A stretch of DNA of 37,454 bases from an uncultured Rhodospirillaceae bacterium (lineage in GTDB: Bacteria > Pseudomonadota > Alphaproteobacteria > Rhodospirillales > Magnetospirillaceae), in assembly GCA_903941095.1 (NCBI GenBank), contig CAJANN010000075.1:1-37454 (forward strand), written 5' to 3'. The stretch's first letter is position 1, and every line of letters begins with the position of its first letter. The notes beneath the pieces are model-generated. The model was not told the origin of the DNA. It ran no database searches and was given only the letters and a program-made list of their open reading frames with translations. Below are positions 3,591-23,741 of this stretch, piece by piece. The position numbers and the translations under genes are program-made.

Positions 3591-5228
3591 ATGGACGATG
3601 ACGACGACCTCTGGCGCCTGAAGATCGGCAGGTTTTCCGATGCCGATGAGCGGCTGTATGCGCGGCTGTTCCGTTTGCGCCGCCCACGCTCCCGAACCCT
3701 CAGTGGGCGTGCCCTGAGCTGGCGGGCGCGGCATGTGGACAGTGGCTGGCGGATGAACGACGGCCCCCAGGTGGTGGTTAAGGCCGCAGGCTCCAGCAAG
3801 AGCCGCTCCGGTGTCCGCGCCTGTATCTGTTATATCGCCCGGCTGCGGGCCCAGGATGATGCCGTAGTGCCGGTGTTCGACGAGATGGGGCGCCCCGTGG
3901 CGCGGGATCAGGTGTTCGGGACGCTAGCAAGCTGGGCGCTGGATGCCGATTCCGACAACCTCGCGCCAGCGGCTAGGCATCAGCCGGATGTTCAGCTACC
4001 GGAGCGTCTGCGCCTGCGCCATGTCCAGTCCCGGCACCTCGTGATGTCGATCCGGGCCGACGACATGGCGGCCGGGGCTGCCATCCTGCGGGACGCTGTC
4101 GCGGCCACGATCGACGGGGTTTTCACCCGCCAGGGCCATCGGGTGCTTTGGGCCATTCACACCGACACCCCAGGCCGCCCACATGCCCATGTAGTGGTCA
4201 AGGCGTTGTCCGAGTTGGGTGGGCGCCTGCGCTGCGATATTCACGGCGATCTTTTCGACACCATCCGCTCCGAGTTGGCGTTGAATTTGACACTGGCGGG
4301 GTTGCCGCATCAGGCGGCCCGGTGCGAGGACAGGGCGGATGTCCGGACGGCGGTGCTGAGCGGCGTCAAACCGTTACGTCGGAAGCGGGGCAGGGGGGAT
4401 GGTGATCTGCTGCGGCGTGCCCCCGCGTGGTGCGCGGAGTATGGCGCCGGTTTGGTCGCCCCATCACCATCGCCGCCACCATTGCACCAATGGTTGCGGT
4501 ATTTGGTGCCCCGCAGGAAGAAATCTGTTCAACCTTTCGAGGGGCCGGAGGAGTATCGGTTGGCTTTCTCGCTGGCGCAGGAGATTTTCTGCGATCCCAA
4601 TGCCGCACTGGTGTCCTGGCAACGTCTGACGATGGAGGGGAGCAATCGGCGTGCGAATGGGAGCGTCCACTATCCCAGCAGGGCTTTGGCTCTCTGGTAT
4701 CTCAAACGGCGTCCCGACATCTTTGGGGATCTGCTGCCGGGCTTCTCTCCCAGCGCATCAGTCCCGCTGGCGAGTGCCTTGGCTCGGGTGACGCTGCCGC
4801 CGCCCGAGGCCCAGCCAGTGCGGGCCGGCGTCATTGATCCGACCTTGGCCGTGGCGATCGCGCGGCATCTACTTGAACGGCGCATGGGGCGGGATCGCAA
4901 ACGAATTGCCGTCAGCCTTAGCCGGCTGGCGGCGCTGGTTCTGGATCGGCATGGCGATGCCCGTCAGGCCGGCCGTATCCTGGATGTCGCCGATCGAGTG
5001 GCTGTGGCATCGCTGCATCATAGAGCGACTGTCCCGCCGCCGGTGGCGGCTCGAGCTCTGGCGCCGCCTCTACTGCGGGATGTGTCAATGGCGAAGGGGC
5101 ATCTACAGGATAGGGGCACAGAGCGCCCCAAGGACCTGACACCAGCGATTCCACCGTCATCACGGCCACCGTTGGCGCCGGCCACCACCCCACGACCCCG
5201 CCCTCGCTACTCCGGGTGGGAGCGATAG
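3591..5228 (+). CDS. Relaxase/mobilization nuclease-like protein
   Basis: HRVLWAIHTDTPGRPHAHVVVKAL histidine motif and VVVKAAGSSKSRSGVRACICYIARL N-terminal motif typical of VirD2/MobA-type relaxases. Confidence 0.65.
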   Translation: MDDDDDLWRLKIGRFSDADERLYARLFRLRRPRSRTLSGRALSWRARHVDSGWRMNDGPQVVVKAAGSSKSRSGVRACICYIARLRAQDDAVVPVFDEMGRPVARDQVFGTLASWALDADSDNLAPAARHQPDVQLPERLRLRHVQSRHLVMSIRADDMAAGAAILRDAVAATIDGVFTRQGHRVLWAIHTDTPGRPHAHVVVKALSELGGRLRCDIHGDLFDTIRSELALNLTLAGLPHQAARCEDRADVRTAVLSGVKPLRRKRGRGDGDLLRRAPAWCAEYGAGLVAPSPSPPPLHQWLRYLVPRRKKSVQPFEGPEEYRLAFSLAQEIFCDPNAALVSWQRLTMEGSNRRANGSVHYPSRALALWYLKRRPDIFGDLLPGFSPSASVPLASALARVTLPPPEAQPVRAGVIDPTLAVAIARHLLERRMGRDRKRIAVSLSRLAALVLDRHGDARQAGRILDVADRVAVASLHHRATVPPPVAARALAPPLLRDVSMAKGHLQDRGTERPKDLTPAIPPSSRPPLAPATTPRPRPRYSGWER

Positions 5229-6100: not shown

Positions 6101-6973
6101 CTACCGTGACCTAGATTTTAGGAGCTTTCGGTAACCACCATTCACCCTGTCCAAACCAACCTCGATGCAATTCTCAATGTCTTTGCGCATGGCGTCACCG
6201 GCGCGCCATTCTTCCTTTACGCGTTGGCGGCCATATATAATTTCAGCAATAGCGCGTGGCTTGTAGTTCCTGAGGTGCCCATCCAATACCCGTAGTATTT
6301 TGACGTGTTTCCGCGCCCTTAGCATGGATGGTGAAATGAAAAAATGGCGCCCATCTCGTGCTGGTCGGTCAAAAATGTCATGCGCATGTTCTGAAAGGTG
6401 TCTTGATGGCGTAAGATTGAGTTTAAGATTCTCATGTGGACGTGGAAATGGTGCGGTTTTGCTGCGAATTGTAACTTGTGTGAATGAGTGTCTTATTGTC
6501 ATGTAGATCCCATTGTCACTAATTGTGCAATAAACACTTCCTCCGCAAGTCATTGGGTCAAGGCGCTTGCCTCTAGTACGAAGAGGTCGCTTTGTTACTT
6601 CGGCGTTGATCGCGCTCGCATTGTCAAGCCAATGAACGACAGCATTCTCGCAACTCAAAAGTGGAGATTCATATTCGACCAAGCCCCATAGAGATGGTCC
6701 ACGTTCAATGATATCCGCTGCATTTGGGGGAAGTCGGCGTAGCTCCTCACATAACTCTTTTTTCTCCTCCTCTTCAAAGCTACCTGGGATCGCAAGGTAA
6801 TTTTCACAGTGTCGCGCGGCCTTCATAACGGCCATCGCAACATAATATTCGTGTCGATAATGCTGGTTCCTCCTCAGATATTCCCAGGCGATCATTTGCT
6901 TGTTGGCTAAGAGGATGGGGAGATACGACCCAGCGAGTTCAGGATATGGTAGAGGAAGTTCGTCTTCATTCAT
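6101..6973 (-). CDS. DUF6499/DUF2285 transcriptional activator (FseA-like)
   Basis: N-terminal IAWEYLRRNQHYRHEY (DUF6499-like) and C-terminal KILRVLDGHLRNYKPRAIAEIIYGRQRV...GYRKLL (DUF2285-like); start overlaps integrase stop (ATGA). Confidence 0.65.
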   Translation of the reverse strand: MNEDELPLPYPELAGSYLPILLANKQMIAWEYLRRNQHYRHEYYVAMAVMKAARHCENYLAIPGSFEEEEKKELCEELRRLPPNAADIIERGPSLWGLVEYESPLLSCENAVVHWLDNASAINAEVTKRPLRTRGKRLDPMTCGGSVYCTISDNGIYMTIRHSFTQVTIRSKTAPFPRPHENLKLNLTPSRHLSEHAHDIFDRPARDGRHFFISPSMLRARKHVKILRVLDGHLRNYKPRAIAEIIYGRQRVKEEWRAGDAMRKDIENCIEVGLDRVNGGYRKLLKSRSR

Positions 6974-8136
6974 CGGCTGACCTCCTCTATAATGGTTCCG
7001 ATGGTTTCGCTGGCCTTGGCCAGCGGGTCTTGCCACAGGTGGGCGTAGCGCGCGGTGGTCTGCGGGCTGCTGTGGCCGAGCAGACCGCCGAGGATCTGCA
7101 ACGGCACCCCGGCCGAGGCGGCCGTACTGGCGAAGCTGTGGCGCAAGTCGTGGATGCGCACGTCGTCGAGCTTGGCGTGTTTGCGCACACGGTTCCACGG
7201 TTTCTGCAGGTTAATGAGGTGCGAGCGCTCGTTTTTTCCGGTGATGACGAAGGGGTTGTCCTCGTCTTCCTGCGGCAGGGCTTCCAGCAGCTTGATTGCG
7301 GCCGAGTTGAGCGGGATCGCCTTGGCGCCGTGCTTGTCCGTCTTGTGCCGTTCCAGTAGCAGACGGCGGTTGGCAAGGTCGACGCTGCGCCATTCTAATT
7401 CAAGAATTTCGTTGAGCCGGCAGCCGGTTAGGCAGAGGAGACGAATCGCCGCCGCCTGGTGGGTGCCTATCACCTTCATGGCTTCCTGCTCGTCGAGGCT
7501 GGCGAACAGCCGCTTGAATTCCTCGGGGGTGAGGAAGCGCTGGCGCTTGCGTTCCTGGAACGGCTTGACCGGCTCTGCGGGATTGGCATGAGTGGGGATC
7601 TCGCCCCACTGCTCGGCCTTGTTGAACATCGCCCGCAGCAGGCCGAGGCAGCGATTGGCATTATAAGGAGTGTCGCGCAGCCCTTGGTGGAAGCGGCCGA
7701 TGTCGGTGGCGGTGATCTCCTTGACCTTGTGGGCGCCGAAGCGGGGCAGGATGAACTTGTCGAGCAGCCAGCGGTGTGCCGCCATGGTGCTGGCCTTGCA
7801 GCGGCCGGTGCAGTGCTCGTCCATATAGCGGTCCGACAGGTCGCGGACGGTGTCGCCGGCGCGTGCCTCGCGGCGCTCCCGTACCGGGTCGTCGCCCAGC
7901 GACACGCCGCCCTTCAGCTTGCTCGCCTCGCGGCGGGCCTGGTCGAGCGTGAGCTGGCCCACGCGCCCGAGCGACAGCCGCTTGCTTCTGCCGTGGCGGT
8001 TGCGATACTGGAGGATGAAGGTCTTGACGCCCGACGGCTTTACCCGCACGCCGAAGCCGGGCACCGCATCGTCCCAGACGACGATGTCATCTTCCTCGGC
8101 CTTCAACCCTCCGATCACCTGCTTCGTCAGCCTCAT
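6970..8136 (-). CDS. Tyrosine recombinase / P4-type integrase
   Basis: MRLTKQVIGGLKAEEDDIVVWDDAVPGFGVRVKPSG N-terminus; catalytic segments TGCRLNEILELEW, HDLRHSFAS and GLLGHSSPQTTARYAHL. Confidence 0.93.
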   Translation of the reverse strand: MRLTKQVIGGLKAEEDDIVVWDDAVPGFGVRVKPSGVKTFILQYRNRHGRSKRLSLGRVGQLTLDQARREASKLKGGVSLGDDPVRERREARAGDTVRDLSDRYMDEHCTGRCKASTMAAHRWLLDKFILPRFGAHKVKEITATDIGRFHQGLRDTPYNANRCLGLLRAMFNKAEQWGEIPTHANPAEPVKPFQERKRQRFLTPEEFKRLFASLDEQEAMKVIGTHQAAAIRLLCLTGCRLNEILELEWRSVDLANRRLLLERHKTDKHGAKAIPLNSAAIKLLEALPQEDEDNPFVITGKNERSHLINLQKPWNRVRKHAKLDDVRIHDLRHSFASTAASAGVPLQILGGLLGHSSPQTTARYAHLWQDPLAKASETIGTIIEEVSR

Positions 8137-9559: not shown

Positions 9560-10576
9560 TTAATTTATCTGTGCAGACTTTCGTATTTTGCTTGGGCTGT
9601 AACCAAATTTTCTCTTAAATGCAGATAGAAAGTGGTTTGTGTGGCTGTAGCCAAGATTTTCAGAAATTACCTTTAGTGGCGTACTGCTGTTTTCGATTGC
9701 AGCGTGGGCTTCTAATAACCTTCTCTCCATTAAAAAATTATATATTGATTTTCCAAATACCTTTTTGAAGTCGTTGTTCAGCGTGTCGGCTGTAACATTG
9801 TATCTCTCTGCGAGTTGGTCGAGTGTTGGGATTTTTCCATTAAGTGAAGTTAGCTCAGATTCGAGCTCTCTAACTCTTTTTTGTGATTTTCCTGATTTTT
9901 GATGTGTGGTGTCTTTGTCAGCGCCAAAATGGGTTATGAGCTGAGACACATATTCAAGGCATTTTGCCTGAGCGTGTAGCACCGCTGCGGGGCCGTCCAT
10001 TTTGTGGTCGATTGCTGAATAAAGTGTCCTCCCAATATCTTGTGCAATAACTTTCTTGGAAAATGAGTTCCTGGAGGAAAGATCAACAGAGGATAAAAGT
10101 GATAAAAACGTGTCGCTCCCAACAAGGGGGGTCATCGACATCACCGGAGTTATAATACAATAAAGAATACATCTTTCGCCGGAATCCACGAATCCGGTGC
10201 TGTCATATCTGTCGGTTCGTATAAAAAGTGTTTCGCGCTTATCTTGGTGATATTTCTGTTTAAGGTGTGCATCATCGTAAACACATCGTCCTGATTTCAA
10301 CGTGTATATCATAATAACATCTTTGTTGAATTCGCTGACCGCGCGTATGACCGGGATCAGTGCCCCATTGGCTCTGGATTCAAAAATATACTCGGAATGG
10401 GCGAGTGACATTCCGAGCGGTAGATCGACGAAGGTCAACGAGGCAGAGCCAATGTTGCCTTCAAGAGGAATTTCCTGGCGTATCATCGGGGGGCGCGACG
10501 AGCCGATATTGAGATTTTTTCCGGTCTCGCCCTGAAGCCACTCAAGCCGGGCCTTATCATCGAAGATATTGCGCAT
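9560..10576 (-). CDS. AraC-family transcriptional regulator
   Basis: C-terminal double HTH: PTLDQLAERYNVTADTLNNDFKKVFGKSIYNFLMERRLLEAHAAI...VISENLGYSHTNHFLSAFKRKFGYSPSKIRK. Confidence 0.9.
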   Translation of the reverse strand: MRNIFDDKARLEWLQGETGKNLNIGSSRPPMIRQEIPLEGNIGSASLTFVDLPLGMSLAHSEYIFESRANGALIPVIRAVSEFNKDVIMIYTLKSGRCVYDDAHLKQKYHQDKRETLFIRTDRYDSTGFVDSGERCILYCIITPVMSMTPLVGSDTFLSLLSSVDLSSRNSFSKKVIAQDIGRTLYSAIDHKMDGPAAVLHAQAKCLEYVSQLITHFGADKDTTHQKSGKSQKRVRELESELTSLNGKIPTLDQLAERYNVTADTLNNDFKKVFGKSIYNFLMERRLLEAHAAIENSSTPLKVISENLGYSHTNHFLSAFKRKFGYSPSKIRKSAQIN

Positions 10577-10951: not shown

Positions 10952-10973
10952 CCCGCGCATAGCGGGTCTTTTT
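10952..10973 (+). terminator. Terminator-like hairpin just upstream of the mini gene
   Basis: CCCGC-gcata-GCGGG followed by TCTTTTT. Confidence 0.55.
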
Positions 10974-10994: not shown

Positions 10995-11225
10995 ATGAAT
11001 GCCTTTTTGTCAAAGCAGAAGCGCCGTCACAACACTCTCGGTCTCATGGCTCTTGAACCCCGGTGGATGTTTGACGGCGCGGCGATGGCCGATGCCGCGC
11101 ACGCCGCCCCCGATGTTGCCGCTAGGGCGCAGATCCCCGACGCCCCCGCCCCGGTCGAGGTCAAGATCGCCTTCACCCAACAGCTCAAGCTGGCCGCACG
11201 TCATGCCGCCATCCGCTTTTCCTAA
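10995..11225 (+). CDS. 76-aa LEPR-motif mini protein (short paralogue of the giant surface protein)
   Basis: MNAFLSKQKRRHNTLGLMALEPRWMFDGAAMADAAHAAPD...DAPAPVEV then KIAFTQQLKLAARHAA, matching N- and C-termini of the 2072-aa protein. Confidence 0.7.
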   Translation: MNAFLSKQKRRHNTLGLMALEPRWMFDGAAMADAAHAAPDVAARAQIPDAPAPVEVKIAFTQQLKLAARHAAIRFS

Positions 11226-11242
11226 GTCCAGGGGATAATCAC

Positions 11243-13036
11243 ATGACCGCCAATCTGTCCCGCATGGCCCGCCAGCTGGCCGCCGTGTCCGCCGCCGCCC
11301 TGCTGTCGGCCTGCGCCGTGACGCCGACGCCGTTTACTGCCGAGGAGTTCTCGGCCAAGGCCAAGGCGGATCGCGCCGCCATGTTCGATGGTCAGGACGT
11401 CCTGTCCAAGCCGTTGACCCTGTCCGGCGCGGTGGCCCGTGTGCTGAAGTACAATCTGGACAAGCGATCCAAGATGATGGACGAAGCCCTGGCCCTGGGG
11501 CAAACCAGCCTCGACCGCTTCGACCTGCTGCCCAAACTGACGGCCAATGCGGGCTATACCGAGCGCTCGGCGCCGAACGCCACCAAGTCGCGGGATCTGT
11601 ATACCCAGACCACCAGCACGTCGAACCCCAGCTATTCGGCCGACCGCTTTTCCATCACCAACGATCTGGGCCTGACCTGGAACATCCTGGATTTCGGCGT
11701 CTCCTATTTCACCGCCCACCAGAATGCCGACCGCGCCCTGATCGCCAGAGAAAAGCGGCGCAAGACGGTGAATAACCTGGTCCAGGAGGTGCGCTTCACC
11801 TTCTGGCGGGCCGCTGCCGCCCAGACCCTGAAGGGCAAGGTCACCGAGATCATCGCCAATGCCGAGAAGGCGTTGAAGGACTCCGAGCGGGTCGAGGCCG
11901 AAAAGCTGAAGAACCCCACCGAGACGCTGCGTGTGCAAAAGACCCTGCTGGAAAGCATCCGTCAGCTTGAAGCCATCGATCAGGAGTTGACCACGGCCAA
12001 GGCCGAGCTTGCTGCATTGATCAATGTGCCGCCGGGCAGTGATTTCAAGCTTGAGGTGCCCGAGAAGGGGGGCATGACCATCCCGGAATGGTCCATGCCC
12101 GTCGAGCAGATGGAAGAGGCGGCGCTGATCAACAACCCCGATCTGCGGGAACAGGATTACCAGAGCCGCATTGCCATCGACGATACCCATAAGGAGCTTC
12201 TGAAGCTGCTGCCAGGTGTCACCCTGTCGTTTTCGCGGCAATACGATTCCAACTCGTTCCTGGTGGACAATCGCTGGAACGATGTCGGCACCAAGGTCAC
12301 CTGGAACCTGATCAACCTGCTGTCGGCCCCGGATCGCCTGGCCCACGCCGACAGTGCCGAAAAGGTGGCCGACGCCAAGCGCATTGCTTTGCGCATGGCG
12401 GTTCTGGCCCAGGTCCATGTGATCTCCCACCAATTCGCCAGCGCTGCCAGGCAGTTCGAGCGGGCCGACAAGCTGTGGGGTATCGAAACCCGCCTGGCCG
12501 AGGCCTCGGGCAACCAGCAGCGCGGTGGCACGGCCAACGATATCGAGCGTATCAGCACCGAGACCTCGGCCATTGCCGCCGAGCTTCGGCGCTTCCAGAC
12601 CTATGCCCAGATGCAGTCGGCCTACGGCAAGCTGCAATCCACCATCGGCGCCGATCCGGTGCCCGAAAGGGTGGCCTCGCACTCGCTGGACGGCCTGTCG
12701 GGCGCCATCGTGCTGGCCATGCCGCCGGTGGTGAAAGCCGATGCCGCGCCACAGGCAGCTCCTGCCGTGACAGAGGCTGTGAAGGCCGACGGTTTGACTG
12801 AAGCGGAGCAATCCGACGTGGTTGCCGATGCCCTGGGATGGCTGGGCCGCGCCATCTCAGAGAAAGTCCAGGAACTCTCCGCCCCGACCAAGCCGGACAC
12901 GGCTCCAACGGTCCTGGCGCCTCCAGCCACCGCCACGCCGGTTTCCATGACCGCCGAGCCCGCCGTGTCGCAGGTCGCTCAGGCCAATCCGTCGGACCGC
13001 CATTTCGACTGGCTGGGACGCCCCATCAACAGGTAG
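11243..13036 (+). CDS. TolC-family outer membrane lipoprotein with C-terminal extension
   Basis: Lipobox AALLSACAV; two long coiled-coil/beta modules (LDRFDLLPKLTANAGYTER, GVTLSFSRQYDSNSF, LNWNL-like) typical of TolC-type proteins. Confidence 0.8.
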   Translation: MTANLSRMARQLAAVSAAALLSACAVTPTPFTAEEFSAKAKADRAAMFDGQDVLSKPLTLSGAVARVLKYNLDKRSKMMDEALALGQTSLDRFDLLPKLTANAGYTERSAPNATKSRDLYTQTTSTSNPSYSADRFSITNDLGLTWNILDFGVSYFTAHQNADRALIAREKRRKTVNNLVQEVRFTFWRAAAAQTLKGKVTEIIANAEKALKDSERVEAEKLKNPTETLRVQKTLLESIRQLEAIDQELTTAKAELAALINVPPGSDFKLEVPEKGGMTIPEWSMPVEQMEEAALINNPDLREQDYQSRIAIDDTHKELLKLLPGVTLSFSRQYDSNSFLVDNRWNDVGTKVTWNLINLLSAPDRLAHADSAEKVADAKRIALRMAVLAQVHVISHQFASAARQFERADKLWGIETRLAEASGNQQRGGTANDIERISTETSAIAAELRRFQTYAQMQSAYGKLQSTIGADPVPERVASHSLDGLSGAIVLAMPPVVKADAAPQAAPAVTEAVKADGLTEAEQSDVVADALGWLGRAISEKVQELSAPTKPDTAPTVLAPPATATPVSMTAEPAVSQVAQANPSDRHFDWLGRPINR

Positions 13037-13217
13037 GCGGCGAGTAATGGGAGGCGACGATGATCGGTCAGACGCTCGCCCGTGCCACCAGGAATGCCAT
13101 CCGCCGGATGGGCAGCTTTCCCTGACGGAAATCGCCGTCTTGGCCAGGACGCTGCAGGATTCCAGCATGGCGGTACCCGTTGATGTTTCTCATGCCAAAA
13201 GCCAGGAGTAAGCGATT

Positions 13218-13300
13218 ATGGGCTCCATCAAGCGCAAGCGTCAGAAGATCAGCCTCGGCCTGTTGGCTTTGGAACCGCGCTGGATGTTCGACGGTGCCGT
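13218..13300 (+). other. Sub-feature: LEPRWMFDGA N-terminal motif
   Basis: SLGLLALEPRWMFDGAVVADVAHA; also in the mini protein. Confidence 0.8.
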
Positions 13301-16300
13301 TGTGGCCGATGTGGCGCACGCCACCCCGGATGCATCCGCCAAGGCATTGATCCTGGACGCTCCGGCTCCAGTCCAGATCAAAGCCGCCGATCCAGACCAG
13401 AACAACGGTCGGAAGGAGGTGGTGTTCGTCGATACCTCGGTGGCCGACTACAAGACCCTTGAGGCAGGGGTGAAGCCGGGTGTCGAGATCGAGGAGATCG
13501 ATGGCGGCCAAAGCGGTTTGGCACAGATGGCAAAATGGGCCGAAACCCATACGGGCTATGACAGCATCGCCATCCTGTCCCACGGCGCTGAAGCCGCTTT
13601 GAAACTGGGGACCGACCTTATTACCGAGACCAATATTTCGAGTGTGGTGGTTGCGGCGCAGTTGGCTCAAATCGGTCGCTCGCTGGATGCCAACGGTGAC
13701 ATTCTTCTATACGGCTGCGACGTCGCCAAGGGAGAGGATGGTGCCCAATTCATCAGCGATTTTGCCGTTGCAACGGGAGCCGATGTGGCGGCATCGACAG
13801 ATGTCACGGGCGCAGATGGGAATTGGTCGCTTGAGTTATCGCACGGACAAATAGAGGCACCGGCAGATTGTCGATGGGATGGTTATGAACATGACCTGAG
13901 CGTAACCGGGGTTAATGTGGCTAATGGCGGCATAACCCTGTCCGTCACGTATGGACAATTCAGCTTCTCTTTTGCGAATTGTTCTTTGACGGGAGATGGC
14001 GCTTGGGTCAGCGCCTATCTGGGAACGTTCAAGGTTAGCCTGACGGGTTATTATAGTGGTGATGGGCAGTACTACTCTACGGCGTATACATACCAGCCGG
14101 CATTTGATTTCACGTCTCAATCATTTAGTGGTGGTGGCGCGGTTTTTGGCACTTGGAATGCGGGGTCTCAGAGCTACACACCTTATACGGCTTACGTCTC
14201 TGGCACGTTCACCATCACGGCATCATATTGGACCGACCTGAGCGGCCGCGGGTTGAGCGGATCTGTATATGGACTGACACCAAGTGGAAGCGGCTATGTC
14301 GATCTCAATGGCAAAGGCATTCAAATAAACTATGTCGCCAACACCACTCCAAGCTTCCTTGGAGGCGGTAGCCAGTCGCTCTCCTTGGGGGTTGGCGCTT
14401 CAGCCGTCGATCTGAAAACCTATCTGCATGTCAGCGATTCCGATACGACCAACCAGACCGAGACCTGGACACAAAGCAGCGGCCCCAGCCATGGCACCTT
14501 GAGCATTGCCGGGGCCACCGGCACGTCAGGTAGCACCGATATCACGCCTGGAGGCACCATCACCTATACCCCCGCTGCGGGGTATACCGGTACTGACAGC
14601 TTTTCCATTCAGGTCAGCGATGGCACTGCCACCGCCACCAAGACCTTCAGCGTCACGGTTAACGACGCGCCAACCATCACTGGTGCGTCTGCGGGCCAAA
14701 CGGTCAATGACAACGCGACCGACATGCCGTTTTCCGGTGTCACCATCGCGGACAACGGGACTTCGGATGGTAGTACGGCACAGACCCAAACCGTGCACGT
14801 TACCCTCGATACCGCCGCCAAAGGCAGTTTCACGACCCTGAATGGGTTCACGAATGCTGGTGGCGGCGATTATACCTTCACGGGGACTGCCGCGGCGGCC
14901 ACGACGGCGATCAGGGGGCTGGTGTTCACGCCCACCGCCAACCGAGTGGCACCGGGCTCGACCGAGACCACGACGTTCACCATCAGCACCAACGACGGTG
15001 TGGCATCGACGGTGACCAATGCCACCACGACGATGGTATCGACCTCGATCAACGACACGCCGACCAACATCTCGCTGTCTTCGTCGAGTGTGGCGGAGAA
15101 CAGTGGCGCCGGAACGGCGGTGGGCACTCTGTCGACCACCGACGCGGACAGCGGCGACACTTACACCTATTCCCTGGTCAGCGGTGCCACGGACAAATTC
15201 CAAATTTCTGGCAGTCAGTTGCAGGTGAAGGCGGGGGCCAATCTGGATTACGAGACGGCCACCAGCCACAGTGTGACGGTGCGGACTACTGACTCCCAGG
15301 GTGCCTTCTACGACAAGGTCTTCACGATCACGGTGACCAACGTCAACGAGGCACCGACCGATATCGCTCTGTCGGCTGCTACGGTCCCTGAGAACAGCGC
15401 GGCGGGAACGGTGGTAGGCAACCTGTCCAGCACCGACCCGGACGTCGGCAACACCTTTACCTATTCGCTGGTGGGCGGCGCTACGTCGAAGTTCCAGATC
15501 GTCGGCGGTCAGTTGCAGGTCAAGGCCGGGGCCAACCTGGATTATGAGACCGCAACCAGCCAGAGCGTGACAGTCCGCACCACCGACCAGGGGGGGCTGA
15601 CCTACGACAAGGCTTTCACCATCGCCATCGCCAACGTCAACGACGCTGCCACCGTCACCATCAACGAGGGTGCGGTGGTGGTGCAGGGGCAGTCGGTGAC
15701 CATCTCCAATGCCAAGTTGTCATCCTATGACGGTGAGCAAGCATCCAGTACCCTGACCTATACCGTCATCACCAAGCCCACCGGCGGAACCCTTTACAAG
15801 AGCGGCGTGGCGCTGAACAACGGCGACACCTTCCTGCAATCGGATCTGGGGGCGGGCAATATCACCTACACCCATGGCGGTGGAGGCGGCGCGAGCGACA
15901 GTTTCGTCTTCAAGGTGACCGACAACGCCGCCAACGATACCGCCAACACTACCTTCGCCATCACGGTGAACCGCCAGCCGGTGGTGGCCAACGCCATCGC
16001 CAACCAGTCGTGGTCCGGCTCTGGCGTGAAGAGCTTTCAGTTCGCCCCCAATGTGTTCACCGACGCCGATGCCGACACCATGACCTATTCGGCCAAGCAG
16101 CAGGATGGCTCGGCCTTGCCGTCCTGGCTGTCGTTCAGTTCCTCGACGCGGACCTTTTCCGGCAATCCGCCTTCGGGTGTGGCCAGTGTCGCTCTTAGAG
16201 TGACCGCCGATGATGGTCGCGGCGGCAGCGCCACCAACGACTTCACCATCAATATTTCCAATGCCAACGATACTGCGACGGTGGCCAACGCCATTCCCAA

Positions 16301-19300
16301 CCAGACCTGGACCGGGTCGGGGGCCAAAAGCTATCAGGTGCCCGCCAACACCTTCTCGGCCGATCCCGACGGCGACGCCTTAAGCTATTCTGCGACACTG
16401 CAAGGCGGTGGTGCGCTTCCGTCCTGGCTGAGCTTCGACACCGCCAGCCGGACTTTCAGCGGTAATCCGCCCGTCGGTGTTGGTTCCTACAATCTGACCG
16501 TCACCGCCAATGACGGCAATGGCGGCACGGTATCGTCCACCTTCACCCTGACGCTCACCTCCGTCAACGACGCGCCGGTCCTGGCCAATCCCCTAGGGCC
16601 GCAAACCATGAGTGGACCGGGGGTTTGGAGCTATACAATCCCGGCCAGCACCTTCACCGACGCCGACAACGATACGCTGACCTGGAGCGCCACCAAGGCC
16701 GATGGTTCGGCGCTTCCCGCCTGGCTGAGCTTCAACGCCACCACCCGCGTCCTGTCGGGCAACGCCCCCAACAATGTTCCCCAGGTGGACGTCAAGATCA
16801 GTGTGTCGGATGGTAATGGCGGCACAGCCTCGTCGTCCTTCCGTCTCAACATCGACCAGAACACCAGCAACGACGCCCCGGTTCTGGCCAATGCCATTGC
16901 CAGCACCACCTGGACCGGATCGGGGGCCAATACCTATCAGATCCCGGCCAACACCTTCACCGATGCCGATGGCGATACCCTGTCCCTGTCCGCCACCCTG
17001 ACCGGCGGCGGGGCGCTGCCCTCCTGGCTGCGCTTCAATCCCCAGACCTGGGCCTTTTCGGGCAATCCCCCCGCGACCGCCGACGGCCAGACCTATGCCA
17101 TCACGGTCACCGCCAATGACAATGAAGGCGGCAGCATTACCGGGGCCTTCAATCTGACCATCGCCAGCGCCAATGACACGCCGACCCTCGCCGCCGGCAT
17201 GGCCGACCAGAGCATGAGCGGAAGCGGCAGTTGGAGTTATCAGGTTCCGGTCAATACCTTCACCGATGCCGATGGCGACACCATCACCTGGAGCGCCACC
17301 CAGTCCGATGGCAGTGCCCTGCCGTCGTGGTTGTCGTTCGACGCCAATAGTCGCACCTTCTCCGGTAATCCGCCGTCCAGCGTCTCGACTTTGCTGCTGA
17401 AGGTGACCGGCACCGATCCGTCGGCGGCGGCGGCATCCAGTACCTTTACCCTTCGGGTCTCCAATTCCAATGACGCACCGGTGGTGGCCAATGGGTTGGC
17501 GGGGCAGAACATGTCGGGGCCGGGGGCGTGGACCTATCAGGTTCCGGCCAACACGTTTACCGACGCCGACAACGACACCCTGACCTATTCCGCCATCCAA
17601 TCCGATGGATCGGCCCTGCCGTCCTGGCTGTCCTTCGACGCCAGCACACGCACCTTCACCGGCAATCCCCCCTGGGGCGCGCCCAGCGTGGCGCTGAAGG
17701 TCACCGCCGATGACGGAAACGGCGGCAGCGCGTCGTCGTCCTTCCAGCTCTCCATCGACCAGAACACCACCAACGACGCTCCGGTGGTCGCCAACGCCAT
17801 TGGCGCCCAGACCAAGGACGGCTCTGGCGCCTGGACCTATCAGGTTCCGGCCAACACCTTCTTCGACGCCGATGGCACGCCGGTGACCTTGAGCGCATCT
17901 TTGAGCAGCGGCGCCGCCCTTCCGTCCTGGCTCAGCTTCAACGCTTCCACCCGGACGTTTTCCGGCAATCCGCCGGCCTCGGTCAACGGCCAGACTTTCG
18001 CCATCAGGGTGACGGCCACTGATCCGCAGAACTCGACGGTGACCAACACCTTCAATCTGGCCGCAACCAACGCCAATGACACACCGACGGTGGCCAACGC
18101 CATCGCCGATCAGAGTTGGAGCGGATCGGGAAGCAAGACGTTCCAGTTCAATGCGAACGTCTTCAATGACGCCGATGGCGATACCATGACCTATACAGCC
18201 ACTCAGGCGGATGGGACGGCACTGCCGTCCTGGCTGAGTTTCACCAGCACAACTCGGACCTTCTCCGGCAATCCTCCCTCCAGCTTGTCCTATATCGATC
18301 TCAAGGTGACCGCTTCGGATGGCAATGGTGGCGCCAAGTCCACTACCTTCCGGGAGTACATCTCCAACGTCAACGACCAGCCGACCGTCAGTTCCCCGAC
18401 GATCTCGGGCGCACTCGGCAAGGGCGGCTCGGCACCGATTCCCGGCGGCACCTTCACTGATCCCGATGGCGATCCTCTGACCTATACCGCCAAAGGGCCG
18501 AACAACACGCCATTGCCGTCCTGGCTGAAGTTTGATCCGATCACCCATACCTTCACCGGCACCCCGTCCCAGGGGCAGAGCGGTTCCATCCCGGTGACGG
18601 TGATGGTGACCGATTCCTCGGGCGCCACCGTCTCGACCACCATGACGCTGTCCTATGACAATCCGTCCCCGCCACCGCCTCCACCGCCTCCACCAGCGCC
18701 GCCGCCGGTCGTCGAGGCTCCCAAGCCGCCACCGCCTCCCCCATCAGAGGGACCGGCGCTGATTACCTCGATCCGGGCGGCGGTGTCGGATAGTAGTGCT
18801 TTCACCCAGGGAGGCTCCGGTATTGGCAGCAATGCCTTTGCCGCCAGAATCGCTTCCGTGACCAGCGGCGGCGGATTCCAGGTGGCTGTTTCGGCGCCGC
18901 CGGTCAATGCTGTCAGCGATGGCGCGTTGTTCGTCGCCAAGGGCATCCCCGCCGTGGTCGTGGACTCCAAGGTCATCAATTTCGCGGTGCCCGTGGACGC
19001 ATTCGGTCACACTAGCGCCGAGGCCGGCATCCAGCTTGCTGCCAAGATGAGCGACGGTCGCCCCTTGCCACCTTGGATGAGTTTTGATGCAACGCGCGGT
19101 ATTTTTGTCGGTGAGGCGCCGGAGGGCTTCAAGGGGTCCTTGGCGGTCATCGTGGTCGCCCGTGATAACGGAGGACACGAGGTCGCCACCAATTTCCGTA
19201 TCCAGATCGGTGGTGGTGCGGTGAAGGAGGGCGGGCAGGCACCAGCCAATCAGAACGGCGAAGACCAACCCGAATCGGCTTCGCAAGGACAACGGAGTGG

Positions 19301-19436
19301 TGACCTCGCCCCGGCGCGTGACGGCAAGCCGATCCGCACTGGCGATCTTCATCATACGGGCAAGCTGGCCTTCACCCAGCAACTCAAGAAGGCTGGCCGC
19401 CACGTGGACATGGCCCGTCTGGCGCGGTGGGCATGA
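13218..19436 (+). CDS. Giant surface/adhesin-like protein: LEPR motif, DUF4347, cadherin and CADG/He_PIG repeats
   Basis: ALEPRWMFDGA; DUF4347-like VVFVDTSVADYKTL...LSHG...DILLYGCDVA; two cadherin-like repeats; nine repeats with GSALPSWLSF..TRTFSGNPP; Pro-rich linker. Confidence 0.9.
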   Translation: MGSIKRKRQKISLGLLALEPRWMFDGAVVADVAHATPDASAKALILDAPAPVQIKAADPDQNNGRKEVVFVDTSVADYKTLEAGVKPGVEIEEIDGGQSGLAQMAKWAETHTGYDSIAILSHGAEAALKLGTDLITETNISSVVVAAQLAQIGRSLDANGDILLYGCDVAKGEDGAQFISDFAVATGADVAASTDVTGADGNWSLELSHGQIEAPADCRWDGYEHDLSVTGVNVANGGITLSVTYGQFSFSFANCSLTGDGAWVSAYLGTFKVSLTGYYSGDGQYYSTAYTYQPAFDFTSQSFSGGGAVFGTWNAGSQSYTPYTAYVSGTFTITASYWTDLSGRGLSGSVYGLTPSGSGYVDLNGKGIQINYVANTTPSFLGGGSQSLSLGVGASAVDLKTYLHVSDSDTTNQTETWTQSSGPSHGTLSIAGATGTSGSTDITPGGTITYTPAAGYTGTDSFSIQVSDGTATATKTFSVTVNDAPTITGASAGQTVNDNATDMPFSGVTIADNGTSDGSTAQTQTVHVTLDTAAKGSFTTLNGFTNAGGGDYTFTGTAAAATTAIRGLVFTPTANRVAPGSTETTTFTISTNDGVASTVTNATTTMVSTSINDTPTNISLSSSSVAENSGAGTAVGTLSTTDADSGDTYTYSLVSGATDKFQISGSQLQVKAGANLDYETATSHSVTVRTTDSQGAFYDKVFTITVTNVNEAPTDIALSAATVPENSAAGTVVGNLSSTDPDVGNTFTYSLVGGATSKFQIVGGQLQVKAGANLDYETATSQSVTVRTTDQGGLTYDKAFTIAIANVNDAATVTINEGAVVVQGQSVTISNAKLSSYDGEQASSTLTYTVITKPTGGTLYKSGVALNNGDTFLQSDLGAGNITYTHGGGGGASDSFVFKVTDNAANDTANTTFAITVNRQPVVANAIANQSWSGSGVKSFQFAPNVFTDADADTMTYSAKQQDGSALPSWLSFSSSTRTFSGNPPSGVASVALRVTADDGRGGSATNDFTINISNANDTATVANAIPNQTWTGSGAKSYQVPANTFSADPDGDALSYSATLQGGGALPSWLSFDTASRTFSGNPPVGVGSYNLTVTANDGNGGTVSSTFTLTLTSVNDAPVLANPLGPQTMSGPGVWSYTIPASTFTDADNDTLTWSATKADGSALPAWLSFNATTRVLSGNAPNNVPQVDVKISVSDGNGGTASSSFRLNIDQNTSNDAPVLANAIASTTWTGSGANTYQIPANTFTDADGDTLSLSATLTGGGALPSWLRFNPQTWAFSGNPPATADGQTYAITVTANDNEGGSITGAFNLTIASANDTPTLAAGMADQSMSGSGSWSYQVPVNTFTDADGDTITWSATQSDGSALPSWLSFDANSRTFSGNPPSSVSTLLLKVTGTDPSAAAASSTFTLRVSNSNDAPVVANGLAGQNMSGPGAWTYQVPANTFTDADNDTLTYSAIQSDGSALPSWLSFDASTRTFTGNPPWGAPSVALKVTADDGNGGSASSSFQLSIDQNTTNDAPVVANAIGAQTKDGSGAWTYQVPANTFFDADGTPVTLSASLSSGAALPSWLSFNASTRTFSGNPPASVNGQTFAIRVTATDPQNSTVTNTFNLAATNANDTPTVANAIADQSWSGSGSKTFQFNANVFNDADGDTMTYTATQADGTALPSWLSFTSTTRTFSGNPPSSLSYIDLKVTASDGNGGAKSTTFREYISNVNDQPTVSSPTISGALGKGGSAPIPGGTFTDPDGDPLTYTAKGPNNTPLPSWLKFDPITHTFTGTPSQGQSGSIPVTVMVTDSSGATVSTTMTLSYDNPSPPPPPPPPPAPPPVVEAPKPPPPPPSEGPALITSIRAAVSDSSAFTQGGSGIGSNAFAARIASVTSGGGFQVAVSAPPVNAVSDGALFVAKGIPAVVVDSKVINFAVPVDAFGHTSAEAGIQLAAKMSDGRPLPPWMSFDATRGIFVGEAPEGFKGSLAVIVVARDNGGHEVATNFRIQIGGGAVKEGGQAPANQNGEDQPESASQGQRSGDLAPARDGKPIRTGDLHHTGKLAFTQQLKKAGRHVDMARLARWA
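15987..18655 (+). repeat. Nine tandem CADG/He_PIG-like repeats of about 100 aa (coding)
   Basis: Recurring ANAIA.Q..SGSG...YQ.PANTFTDADGDT...GSALPSWLSF....RTFSGNPP. Confidence 0.9.
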
Positions 19437-20188
19437 TGCGCAACGACATGGCCGCGTCCCATTTTCCGTTCCGCCTGGGATGGGCGGTCCCGGCCCTGTG
19501 CCTGCTCTCCTTCGGAGCGCAGGCACAGGAGCCGGCGATTCCCGTTCAACTGGTGGCCGTGCAGTTCACCACCCTGTCTGCGGAACTGCCGGGCAAGATC
19601 GACCGCATCACGGTGAAGGAGGGCGAGCGTTTCAAGGAAGGCCAACAATTGGTCGCCTTCGACTGTACCATCCAGCGGGCGCAGCAGGACGAGGCCAACG
19701 CCGTATTGGCCGCTGCCGAGAAGTCCAAGTCGGTGCATAAGCGGCTGCTGGAGCTGAATTCGGCGGGCACGCTGGAGGCCGAGAAATCGGTATCCGACGC
19801 CGCCGTGGCTCAGGCCAAACTCAACTCCGCCCGCGCGGTCACCTCCAAATGCGCCATTGCCGCGCCATTCTCTGGCCGGGTAGTGGAGCAAAAGGCGCGC
19901 GCCCATCAATACATCCAGGCCGGCCAGCCGATCCTCGACATCCTGGACGACTCAGCCCTAGACGCGGAATTCATCGTGCCGTCTGGTTGGGTCAGGAACC
20001 TCAAGCCTGGCTTGGTAGTCCAGGTGGCGGTCGATGAGGTGAAAAAGGTCTATCCCGCCAAGATCGCCCGCATCAGCGCCAAGGTCGACGCCGTCAGCCA
20101 CTCGGTCAAGGTGGTGGCCGAGGTGCGTGGCGACTATCCCGAACTGATCGTCGGCATGACTGGCCGGGTCCAGATGCCGACACCATGA
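19433..20188 (+). CDS. HlyD/RND-type periplasmic adaptor protein
   Basis: Signal peptide; lipoyl/hairpin modules GKIDRITVKEGERFKEGQQLVAFDCTIQRAQQDE, APFSGRVVEQKARAHQYIQAGQPILDI; overlaps preceding stop (ATGA). Confidence 0.85.
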   Translation: MMRNDMAASHFPFRLGWAVPALCLLSFGAQAQEPAIPVQLVAVQFTTLSAELPGKIDRITVKEGERFKEGQQLVAFDCTIQRAQQDEANAVLAAAEKSKSVHKRLLELNSAGTLEAEKSVSDAAVAQAKLNSARAVTSKCAIAAPFSGRVVEQKARAHQYIQAGQPILDILDDSALDAEFIVPSGWVRNLKPGLVVQVAVDEVKKVYPAKIARISAKVDAVSHSVKVVAEVRGDYPELIVGMTGRVQMPTP

Positions 20189-21495
20189 GCGACAACCCGC
20201 TCGTCAATCTGCTGGGGTTGGAAGAGCACGCCCGCCGGGCCACCAATTCCACCGAACTGGGCTTCGTCATGGTCAACGACAGCCGTGTGCTGGCGGCCTA
20301 TCGCCAGGCGGCGCTGTTCATTGAGGGCGAAGGATTGAAGGCGGTGTCGGGCGTCGCCGGGATCGAGGCCGGTGCGCCCTTCACCCTGTGGCTGGGGCGG
20401 GTTTTCAAGCATCTGGCCTCCGACGAGGTCAGTTTGGCTGGTCCCACCGATCTGATTGGAGCCGATGCCGAGGAATGGTCGGAATGGCTACCGCCTTGCG
20501 CCCTGATGCTACCCTTGAAGGACCGCGACGGCAAACGGCTGGGAAATTTGCTGCTGGCCCGCGACGAGGAGTGGAGCGAGCGGGATATTGCCCTGCTGAC
20601 CCGGGCCTCCGACTTCTATGGCCATGCCTGGGCGGTGCTGCACCGGCCATCACCGGTGGTGGAATGGAAGCGGAAGCTCTCCGCGATCCCCCGCTACCGT
20701 CTGAAGCTGGCGGCGGGGATCGTCTTGGCCCTGCTGTTTCCGGTTCGCCTGTCGGTGTTGGCTCCTGCAGAGGTGGTGGCCCATGACCCGGCGGTGATCC
20801 GCTCGCCCATAGAGGGCGTTATCGAACGGGTGCATGTGCGGCCCAACCAGAAGGTGGCCGAAGGAGATGTGCTGTTCGAACTGGATCGCACCACCCTGAC
20901 CGGCAAGCTGGAAGTGGCCAAGAAGGCGCTGTCCACTGCCCAGGCCGAACTGGATCAGGCCACCCAGCAGGCCTTCTTCGATCCCAAGGCCAAGGGCACA
21001 TTGGCGGTGATCCGCGCCCGCATCGAGGAGCGCGGCGCCGAGGCCGCCCAACTGGAAGAGCTGATGGCGCGCGCCCAGGTGAAGGCGCCGCGCGCCGGCG
21101 TGGCTGTTCTGGACGATCCCGCCGAATGGCAGGGCCGTCCGGTCAATGTGGGCGAGAAGGTACTGGCGGTGGCGTCACCCGACGATGTGGAAGTGGAAGC
21201 CTGGCTGGCCCCCGCCGATGTCATCACCCTGGAGAAGGGGGGGCCGGTCATCCTGTTCCTCAATGCCGACCCGCTGTCGCCGGTTTCGGCCAAGCTGCTT
21301 TATGTCACCTATGAAGCCATCCCCCAACCCGACGGCACATTGGGCCACCGGGTGCGGGCGGAATTGGCCGAGGGTGAGGTCGGTCCCCGTCTCGGCCTCA
21401 AGGGCACCGCCCGGCTCGATGGCCATCGGGTGGCGCTGATCTACTGGTTGGCACGGCGCCCGTTGGCGGTGGTGCGCAACTTCGTGGGGCTGTAG
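20185..21495 (+). CDS. HlyD-family membrane adaptor with N-terminal GAF-like region
   Basis: TM segment YRLKLAAGIVLALLFPVRLSVLAPAEVV; lipoyl motif SPIEGVIERVHVRPNQKVAEGDVLFELD; overlaps preceding stop. Confidence 0.8.
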   Translation: MSDNPLVNLLGLEEHARRATNSTELGFVMVNDSRVLAAYRQAALFIEGEGLKAVSGVAGIEAGAPFTLWLGRVFKHLASDEVSLAGPTDLIGADAEEWSEWLPPCALMLPLKDRDGKRLGNLLLARDEEWSERDIALLTRASDFYGHAWAVLHRPSPVVEWKRKLSAIPRYRLKLAAGIVLALLFPVRLSVLAPAEVVAHDPAVIRSPIEGVIERVHVRPNQKVAEGDVLFELDRTTLTGKLEVAKKALSTAQAELDQATQQAFFDPKAKGTLAVIRARIEERGAEAAQLEELMARAQVKAPRAGVAVLDDPAEWQGRPVNVGEKVLAVASPDDVEVEAWLAPADVITLEKGGPVILFLNADPLSPVSAKLLYVTYEAIPQPDGTLGHRVRAELAEGEVGPRLGLKGTARLDGHRVALIYWLARRPLAVVRNFVGL

Positions 21496-21497
21496 AC

Positions 21498-23741
21498 ATG
21501 GCCGCCACCGCCATGCCCCTGCCGGCCTTGCGCGACGAGTTGTCGCTGCATCCCGGCCCGGCCGCGCTGGATGGATCGCCCACCTGGACCATCCGGGATC
21601 CGGTGCGAAACAAGTACTTCCGCGTCGGCTGGGTTGCCTTCGAGGCGCTTTCGCGCTGGGGCGGCACGGCGGGCGAGGTGGCGGCGGCCGTCCGTGCCGA
21701 AACCACCATCGACATGGGTGACGATGAGGTGATGGATGTCGCCAAGTTCCTCCACGGCAACCACCTGACCCAGGTGGTCAGTCATGCCGACACGCTGCGG
21801 CTGGCCGAGCAGGCGGCGGCCGAGAAGCATTCCTTTTTCAACTGGCTGTTACACCATTACCTGTTCTTCCGCATTCCGCTGGTGCGGCCCGACCGCTTCC
21901 TGGGCGCCATGCTGCCGTTGGTGGCGTGGGTGGGAAGCCGCTGGTTCCGCGGGGCCACCGCCGGGGCTTTGCTGCTGGGCCTGATGCTGGTGGCGCGACA
22001 GTGGGAGCTGTTCGCCGCCACATTGGTGGATACCTTTTCGCTATCGGGCATGGTCAGCTACGGTATCGCCCTGTCGCTGGTCAAGGTGATCCACGAACTG
22101 GCCCACGGCCTGACCGCCAAGCGCATGGGGTGCCGGGTACCCACCATGGGCGTCGCCTTCCTGGTGATGTGGCCGGTGTTGTATACCGATGTCAACGAGA
22201 CCTGGACCCTGGCGTCGCGGCGTCAACGTCTATTGATTGGGGCGGCAGGCATTATGGCCGAACTGGCAGTGGCGGCCTGGGCCACCCTGCTCTGGGCCTT
22301 CCTGCCCGACGGGGCGTTGCGCCAGGGGGTCTTCGTCCTGGCCGCCGTCACCTGGGTGTCGTCGCTGGCCATCAATCTCAGCCCCTTCATGCGCTTCGAC
22401 GGCTATTTCCTGGCCATGGACGCGCTGGAACTGCCCAACCTCCACCCCCGGGCCTTCGCCATGGCCAAATGGTGGCTGCGCGAAGTGCTGTTCGGCCTAG
22501 GCGAGCCTGCGCCGGAGGACATGGATGTCGGTCGAAGTCGGGGCATGGTGGCCTTCGCCATCGCGGTGTGGATCTATCGCCTGGCGCTGTTCCTCGGCAT
22601 CGCAGTGCTGGTCTATCATTTCTTCATCAAGGCGGTGGGGGTGCTGCTGTTCGCCGTCGAGATCGGCTGGTTCGTATTCCTGCCCATCTGGAACGAGGTC
22701 AAGGAATGGGCCAAACGACGGGGCGACATCCTCGAAGGGAACCGTTGGAAACGACCACTGATCGGTCTTGGTCTCGTCTTGCTGGTGGCCGTCATCCCCT
22801 GGCGCACCCGTGTCGAGGCCCCTGCCAGCGTCGCCGCCGAGATCAACGCGCCGCTGTTCCTACCCACGCCCGCCCGGCTGGAAAGAGCTCTGGTGGAGCG
22901 CGGCCAGCGTGTCGCAGCAGGGACGCCGCTTTTGGACTTCGCCTCCCCCGACATCGCTGCCCGGCGGGCCATCATCGCGGCAAGGCTGGTTGGCAAATCC
23001 GCCGAGTTGGAGGCGGTCAGGCTCGATCCCTTCGGGCGCGAACGTTTGTCGGCCCTGACTGAGGAATTATCCCGGCTCGGCTCGGAAAAGGCGGCGTTGG
23101 ACGCCGAGGCCGAGCGCTTGACCATTACCGCGCCCCATGCCGGTGTGTTCCTCGATCCGCTGCCCGATCTGAAAACTGGTGCCTGGCTGTCGCCCAAGCA
23201 GCAACTGGGGCTGATCCGCGCCGATGGCGCCACCATCGCCACCGCCTATGTGGCCGAGGATGATCTGGAGCGGATCGGGGAGGGGGGCGAGGCCCGCTTC
23301 ATCCCCCATGGCCTCGATCACGCTGGGCTGAACGGCAGGGTGCTGTCCATCGACCGCAATCCGGTCAAGATTCTCACCGACCCAGCCCTGGCCTCGCTTC
23401 ATGGCGGCGACATCCCGGTGCGGGTATCGGGACAGATTCTGGTTCCCCAGGGCAGCTTTTTCCGCGTTAGCATCCGCCTCGACGGCCCGGCGCCCGACCT
23501 CAAACTGATCGGCCATGCCCGGATCAGCGGCCAAGGCCAAAGCCTGATCGGACGCACCATCCGCGCCGCCCTAGTAGTCCTTGTCCGCGAATGGGGGGCA
23601 ACCGTGTCTTCGAATCCTACGATCAGATCATCGCCTTGTGCTGCCATGCCTGGAACAAGCTCATCGACCAGACATGGAAAATCATCTCCATCGGCCGTCG
23701 TCAGTGGGCTCATGGGTTTTAATCAATGCAGGTTGGTATAA
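21498..23741 (+). CDS. M50-family membrane metalloprotease with C-terminal HlyD-like domain; 3' end fused to IS630 remnant
   Basis: HELAH (22092-22106) and NLSPFMRFDGYF; multiple TM helices; HlyD-like VERGQRVAAGTPLLDFASPDI. Homologous part ends near REWG at about 23597. Confidence 0.85.
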   Translation: MAATAMPLPALRDELSLHPGPAALDGSPTWTIRDPVRNKYFRVGWVAFEALSRWGGTAGEVAAAVRAETTIDMGDDEVMDVAKFLHGNHLTQVVSHADTLRLAEQAAAEKHSFFNWLLHHYLFFRIPLVRPDRFLGAMLPLVAWVGSRWFRGATAGALLLGLMLVARQWELFAATLVDTFSLSGMVSYGIALSLVKVIHELAHGLTAKRMGCRVPTMGVAFLVMWPVLYTDVNETWTLASRRQRLLIGAAGIMAELAVAAWATLLWAFLPDGALRQGVFVLAAVTWVSSLAINLSPFMRFDGYFLAMDALELPNLHPRAFAMAKWWLREVLFGLGEPAPEDMDVGRSRGMVAFAIAVWIYRLALFLGIAVLVYHFFIKAVGVLLFAVEIGWFVFLPIWNEVKEWAKRRGDILEGNRWKRPLIGLGLVLLVAVIPWRTRVEAPASVAAEINAPLFLPTPARLERALVERGQRVAAGTPLLDFASPDIAARRAIIAARLVGKSAELEAVRLDPFGRERLSALTEELSRLGSEKAALDAEAERLTITAPHAGVFLDPLPDLKTGAWLSPKQQLGLIRADGATIATAYVAEDDLERIGEGGEARFIPHGLDHAGLNGRVLSIDRNPVKILTDPALASLHGGDIPVRVSGQILVPQGSFFRVSIRLDGPAPDLKLIGHARISGQGQSLIGRTIRAALVVLVREWGATVSSNPTIRSSPCAAMPGTSSSTRHGKSSPSAVVSGLMGFNQCRLV
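23597..23722 (+). mobile_element. IS630-family transposase C-terminal remnant
   Basis: Frame GNRVFESYDQIIALCCHAWNKLIDQTWKIISIGRRQWAHGF* matches the typical IS630 transposase C-terminal pattern. Confidence 0.75.

Follow-up and report, generated by a model that had tools for sequence, protein, structure and literature searches.

The window analysed here, a 37,454-nucleotide stretch of DNA, contains an operon whose first small open reading frame (mini ORF; 10995–11225, forward strand) encodes 76 amino acids, with its ATG at 10995 and its TAA at 11223–11225. The next gene on the same strand encodes a TolC-type outer membrane channel (tolC; 11243–13036; Pfam OEP, 1e-25). It is followed, also on the forward strand, by giantB (13218–19436), an intact giant of 2,072 amino acids with an LEPRWMFDGA end, DUF4347, cadherin/Ig repeats and a KLAFTQQLKKAGR end; by two HlyD-type adaptors (19427–20188 and 20185–21495; both Pfam HlyD_3); and by an M50 metalloprotease–HlyD fusion (21498–23741; Pfam Peptidase_M50, 9e-9) in which the HELAH active-site motif is present. 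An AraC-family regulator (9560–10576, reverse strand; Pfam HTH_18) is divergently oriented and is positioned as in the relatives G067 and G070. TolC, the two adaptors, the protease fusion and the adjoining giant substrates form an exporter-like set in 11243–23741, and none of the operon genes scanned in this interval was recognised as an ABC transporter ATPase. A literature search found nothing on this giant/TolC/HlyD/M50 system, nor on gene-remnant or polarity aspects bearing on it. Upstream of the operon, a phage-type integrase and a weak relaxase-like match (6970–8136 and 3591–5228) suggest that a mobile element adjoins it.

We looked for a sigma-70-type promoter upstream of the mini ORF and found none. 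The 5′ leader shows no blastn similarity to the leaders of relatives, except for a match to one relative at the coding-region start. A terminator-like hairpin with a T-rich tail lies at 10952–10966, 28 bases 5′ of the mini ORF start; such sites occur about as often as expected by chance.

Residues 1–57 of the mini ORF (10995–11165, including the LGLMALEPRWMFDGAA motif) resemble the N-terminus of this operon's secreted DUF4347/Ig-repeat giants, and residues 58–76 (11166–11225 with the stop; IAFTQQLKLAARHAAIRFS) resemble the extreme C-terminus of the same giants. In a translated search of its own genome, residues 7–63 matched the giant at 13230–13400 (63% identity, E 2e-19). A 1,033-codon frame on contig C186 was matched by residues 3–59 (67%, E 5e-21) and, at its end, by residues 56–76 (86%, E 9e-4). 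This two-end match is far above chance; together with the alignments, it bears out the sequence-only reading of a 76-residue protein built from the two ends of a giant protein. The motifs LEPRWMFDGAA and IAFTQQLK are both intact. No curated family in NCBIfam (E up to 10) or Pfam (E up to 1) matched the mini ORF. Its ends are homologous to those of full-length secreted giants with an N-terminal LEPR motif and DUF4347 (PF14252) and putative-Ig (He_PIG, PF05345) domains; unlike these giants, it lacks DUF4347, their first conserved domain, and all repeat domains.

The sequence comparisons identify giantA, a paralogue of giantB that normally lies directly upstream of tolC, as the probable parent of the mini ORF. 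The neighbouring giant at 13218–19436 had earlier been taken as the parent, a proposal that we reject: this giant ends RHVDMARLARWA, whereas in the mini ORF both the C-terminus and the sequence past the stop are of giantA type, the type found before tolC. The C-terminus, AARHAAIRFS-stop, is 90–95% identical to the giantA of C186, G067, locus 2 of G070 and G029, and 85% identical to that of the other G070 locus. The second locus in the same genome, on C186, carries its 1,033-codon giantA directly before tolC. Positions 11169–12886 of the window, which cover the mini ORF 3′ end and most of tolC, align without a break to the end of this giantA and its tolC (blastn, 83%), and positions 11036–11161 match its 5′ end (blastn, 77% over 126 bp). 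Alignment with five parents likewise showed both junction flanks running unbroken into one parent gene and its flanking gene.

The closest tolC found is that of G067 (91% at the protein level), and near identity between the window and G067 extends from the last giantA codons past the stop and across the gap into tolC. The order araC–giantA–tolC–giantB–hlyD1–hlyD2 is identical in G067 and one G070 locus, both of which have an intact giantA at the syntenic position (1,184 and 1,183 codons, respectively, with frames counted stop to stop). Full-length giantA is also present in a further G070 locus (1,427 codons), in G029 (1,038 codons) and at the paralogous C186 locus. Given this synteny and the unbroken flank alignments, the mini ORF, which is ~1,085 codons shorter than the G067 giantA, takes the place of giantA. 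Conservation of the mini ORF at homologous loci had been proposed as a check on its function, with its absence from close relatives that have intact operons to count as refutation; this is the outcome, since G067, G070 and G029, whose operons are intact and syntenic, carry full-length giantA and no mini ORF.

The mini ORF is very probably an in-frame internal-deletion remnant of giantA, which the sequence-only reading had named as its alternative and which comparison with relatives upholds. A full-length giantA (about 1,160 codons in syntenic relatives) would formerly have headed the tolC/hlyD/M50 operon. A single internal in-frame deletion, estimated at roughly 3.2 kb, would then have fused codon 57 to roughly the 19th-last codon, with both positions placed by alignment to relatives. 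The putative junction is a CAAG overlap at 11162–11165 on the forward strand, and CAAG occurs on both sides in relatives (GTCAAG|GCCGCC on the 5′ side in G070A1 and GGCAAG|ATCGCC on the 3′ side in G067A). A short-homology deletion is likely, probably through recombination or slippage at CAAG. Translation of the remnant, as the operon's first small ORF, likely continues. No function has been demonstrated for it; at most, by staying open as far as the tolC start, its frame would spare tolC and the downstream genes from polarity.

To judge from its open frame and intact end motifs, the deletion looks young. One random deletion in three would be expected to leave the frame open, and the retention of both ends carries little weight because any internal deletion keeps both. 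The remnant resembles internal-deletion pseudogenes of bacterial operons in having a syntenic intact gene in relatives, in keeping the native start and stop, and in breakpoints that vary by lineage; it differs from them in its still-open frame and intact end motifs.

Beyond the window, the search covered 61 relatives, 18 additional members of the family and 317 genomes of the order, in sets that overlap. None of them had a short ORF whose ends are intact, and strong LEPR-end matches fell almost only on long frames or contig ends. The sole other short two-ended ORF among the 317 order genomes is in G008, a single-contig genome of the same genus, where an 89-amino acid ORF lies directly before tolC (L041:5066–5332). 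Like the mini ORF, it occupies this position and keeps both the start and the stop end of a giant. Unlike the mini ORF, it has independent breakpoints, signs of at least two deletions and of a frameshift, and decayed end motifs. Only about 20 N-terminal codons are kept (LGLMALESRW, with the motif decayed to LESRWKTARDN), followed by a piece that matches another giant close to its end, an apparently frame-shifted stretch, and a retained C-terminal end in which FSKQPK replaces FTQQLK. Codons 23–57 are present in the window and absent from G008, whereas inner 3′ sequence is present in G008 and absent from the window. These reciprocal breakpoints indicate that neither ORF derives from the other and that the losses were independent, and we therefore rejected the G008 ORF as an orthologous conserved mini gene. 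A 72-codon frame in G028 was treated as a chance match, since its surroundings contain no operon genes beyond weak chance matches.

Other lineages carry different traces of giantA. G065 has a remnant of about 60 amino acids before tolC, from the 3′ side only; in G013, an N-terminal giant end runs into AraC-like sequence; and G024 has only about 25 codons between araC and tolC, with a stop that overlaps the tolC start (ATGA). At least two other genomes, G008 and G065, thus carry giantA remnants before tolC that shrank independently. By these sequence comparisons, giantA loss is recurrent: the exporter operon loses its first substrate gene again and again, but retains the exporter and the second substrate gene. 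In the G013 case (L048, 5291–5660), the LEPRWMFDGAA end is in frame with an AraC-type HTH, a recombinant remnant between a giantA start and a regulator gene.

Pairwise dN/dS between the mini ORF and the giantA ends was 0.19–0.26, similar to that between intact giantA pairs; the value against a G008 giant was lower, but dS was saturated in that comparison. A branch model (seven sequences, 76 codons) gave the mini ORF tip a dN/dS of 0.10 compared with a background of 0.15, with only one genome carrying this allele; relaxed selection is thus not yet visible, a point against the remnant reading. A dN/dS of 1 on this tip was rejected (lnL −1050.46 versus −1058.68), and a two-phase model limited the neutral share of the tip to at most about 15%. 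Either the deletion is recent or the remnant has been constrained. The low tip dN/dS does not count as evidence for function, since the deletion may postdate most of the tip.

A further explanation is that selection has preserved the translation of this ORF rather than its product, with ribosomes shielding the mRNA from Rho termination or passing on to tolC. This explanation can be compatible with an internal-deletion remnant. Short open frames reach or nearly reach the tolC start in the window, G008, G065 and G024; the gap from stop to tolC ATG is 17 bases in the window, similar in G008 and 2 bases in G065, and is replaced by the ATGA overlap in G024. In G008, the frame is open from start to stop despite its frameshifted stretch. 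However, four cases are few, and short frames stay open by chance. A Shine-Dalgarno-like CAGGGG shortly 5′ of the tolC ATG gives tolC a good initiation site of its own (−6.5 kcal/mol), and this initiation region may itself account for retention of the sequence preceding tolC. We consider selection for a translated leader possible but rather doubtful.

Across 13 intact giants belonging to this tolC clade, mean identity was 84% for the N-terminal 40 residues and 80% for the GKxAFTQQLKxAxR end, compared with 66% for DUF4347, 51% for the linker, 49% for the last Ig region and 34% for a 300-residue middle piece. Since both ends are the best-conserved parts of intact giants, it is reasonable, on sequence grounds, to regard LEPRWMFDG and AFTQQLK as candidate recognition signals for the exporter. 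This part of the sequence-only reading gains support; its argument that exactly both ends had been kept does not, as an internal deletion of any kind would have the same result.

The same reading went further, proposing a dedicated minimal substrate, pheromone or chaperone-like partner. Such a small secreted two-signal peptide could serve the TolC/HlyD/M50 exporter as a plug, competitor, priming substrate or pheromone, and it would accord with the high conservation of the retained ends in intact giants, with their intact motifs in the window and with a pairwise dN/dS of about 0.2. However, the mini ORF is conserved in no relative, and syntenic genomes carry full-length giantA. The G008 ORF has lost the motifs and has a frameshifted middle, the G065 remnant lacks any N-terminal signal, DUF4347 is missing, and a low dN/dS can be inherited from the time before the deletion. 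A dedicated substrate is thus highly unlikely. It is likewise very improbable that a deletion product was subsequently retained as a peptide with two signals, occupying or regulating the exporter as a plug or as a competitor of the giant; if this were true, two short ends alone would suffice for recognition by an exporter without a recognised ABC ATPase gene. Finally, omission of the giantA middle during draft assembly is very unlikely, even in a fragmented genome (370 contigs) with repeat-containing giant genes, given that the proposed 4-base junction overlap is too short for assembler collapse, that both ends differ from every other genome copy found and so form no chimera of known copies, and that an equivalent remnant occurs in the single-contig G008 genome.

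As an internal-deletion remnant, the mini ORF alone is of little importance, being a natural internal deletion. It is also a natural minimal construct of both conserved ends, and it could be tagged to examine whether LEPRWMFDG and AFTQQLK are sufficient for export.

Two further features of G008 were noted. Between two giant genes there is a fragment of hlyD1 made up of its final 40 codons (L041, 13557–13676), which suggests duplication of a giant and hlyD1 followed by decay. This genome also carries two near-identical copies of a tolC–hlyD–M50 locus (L099 and L100), in which the upstream giant reads as two frames, one of 752 codons with the N-terminal end and one of 286 codons with the C-terminal end.
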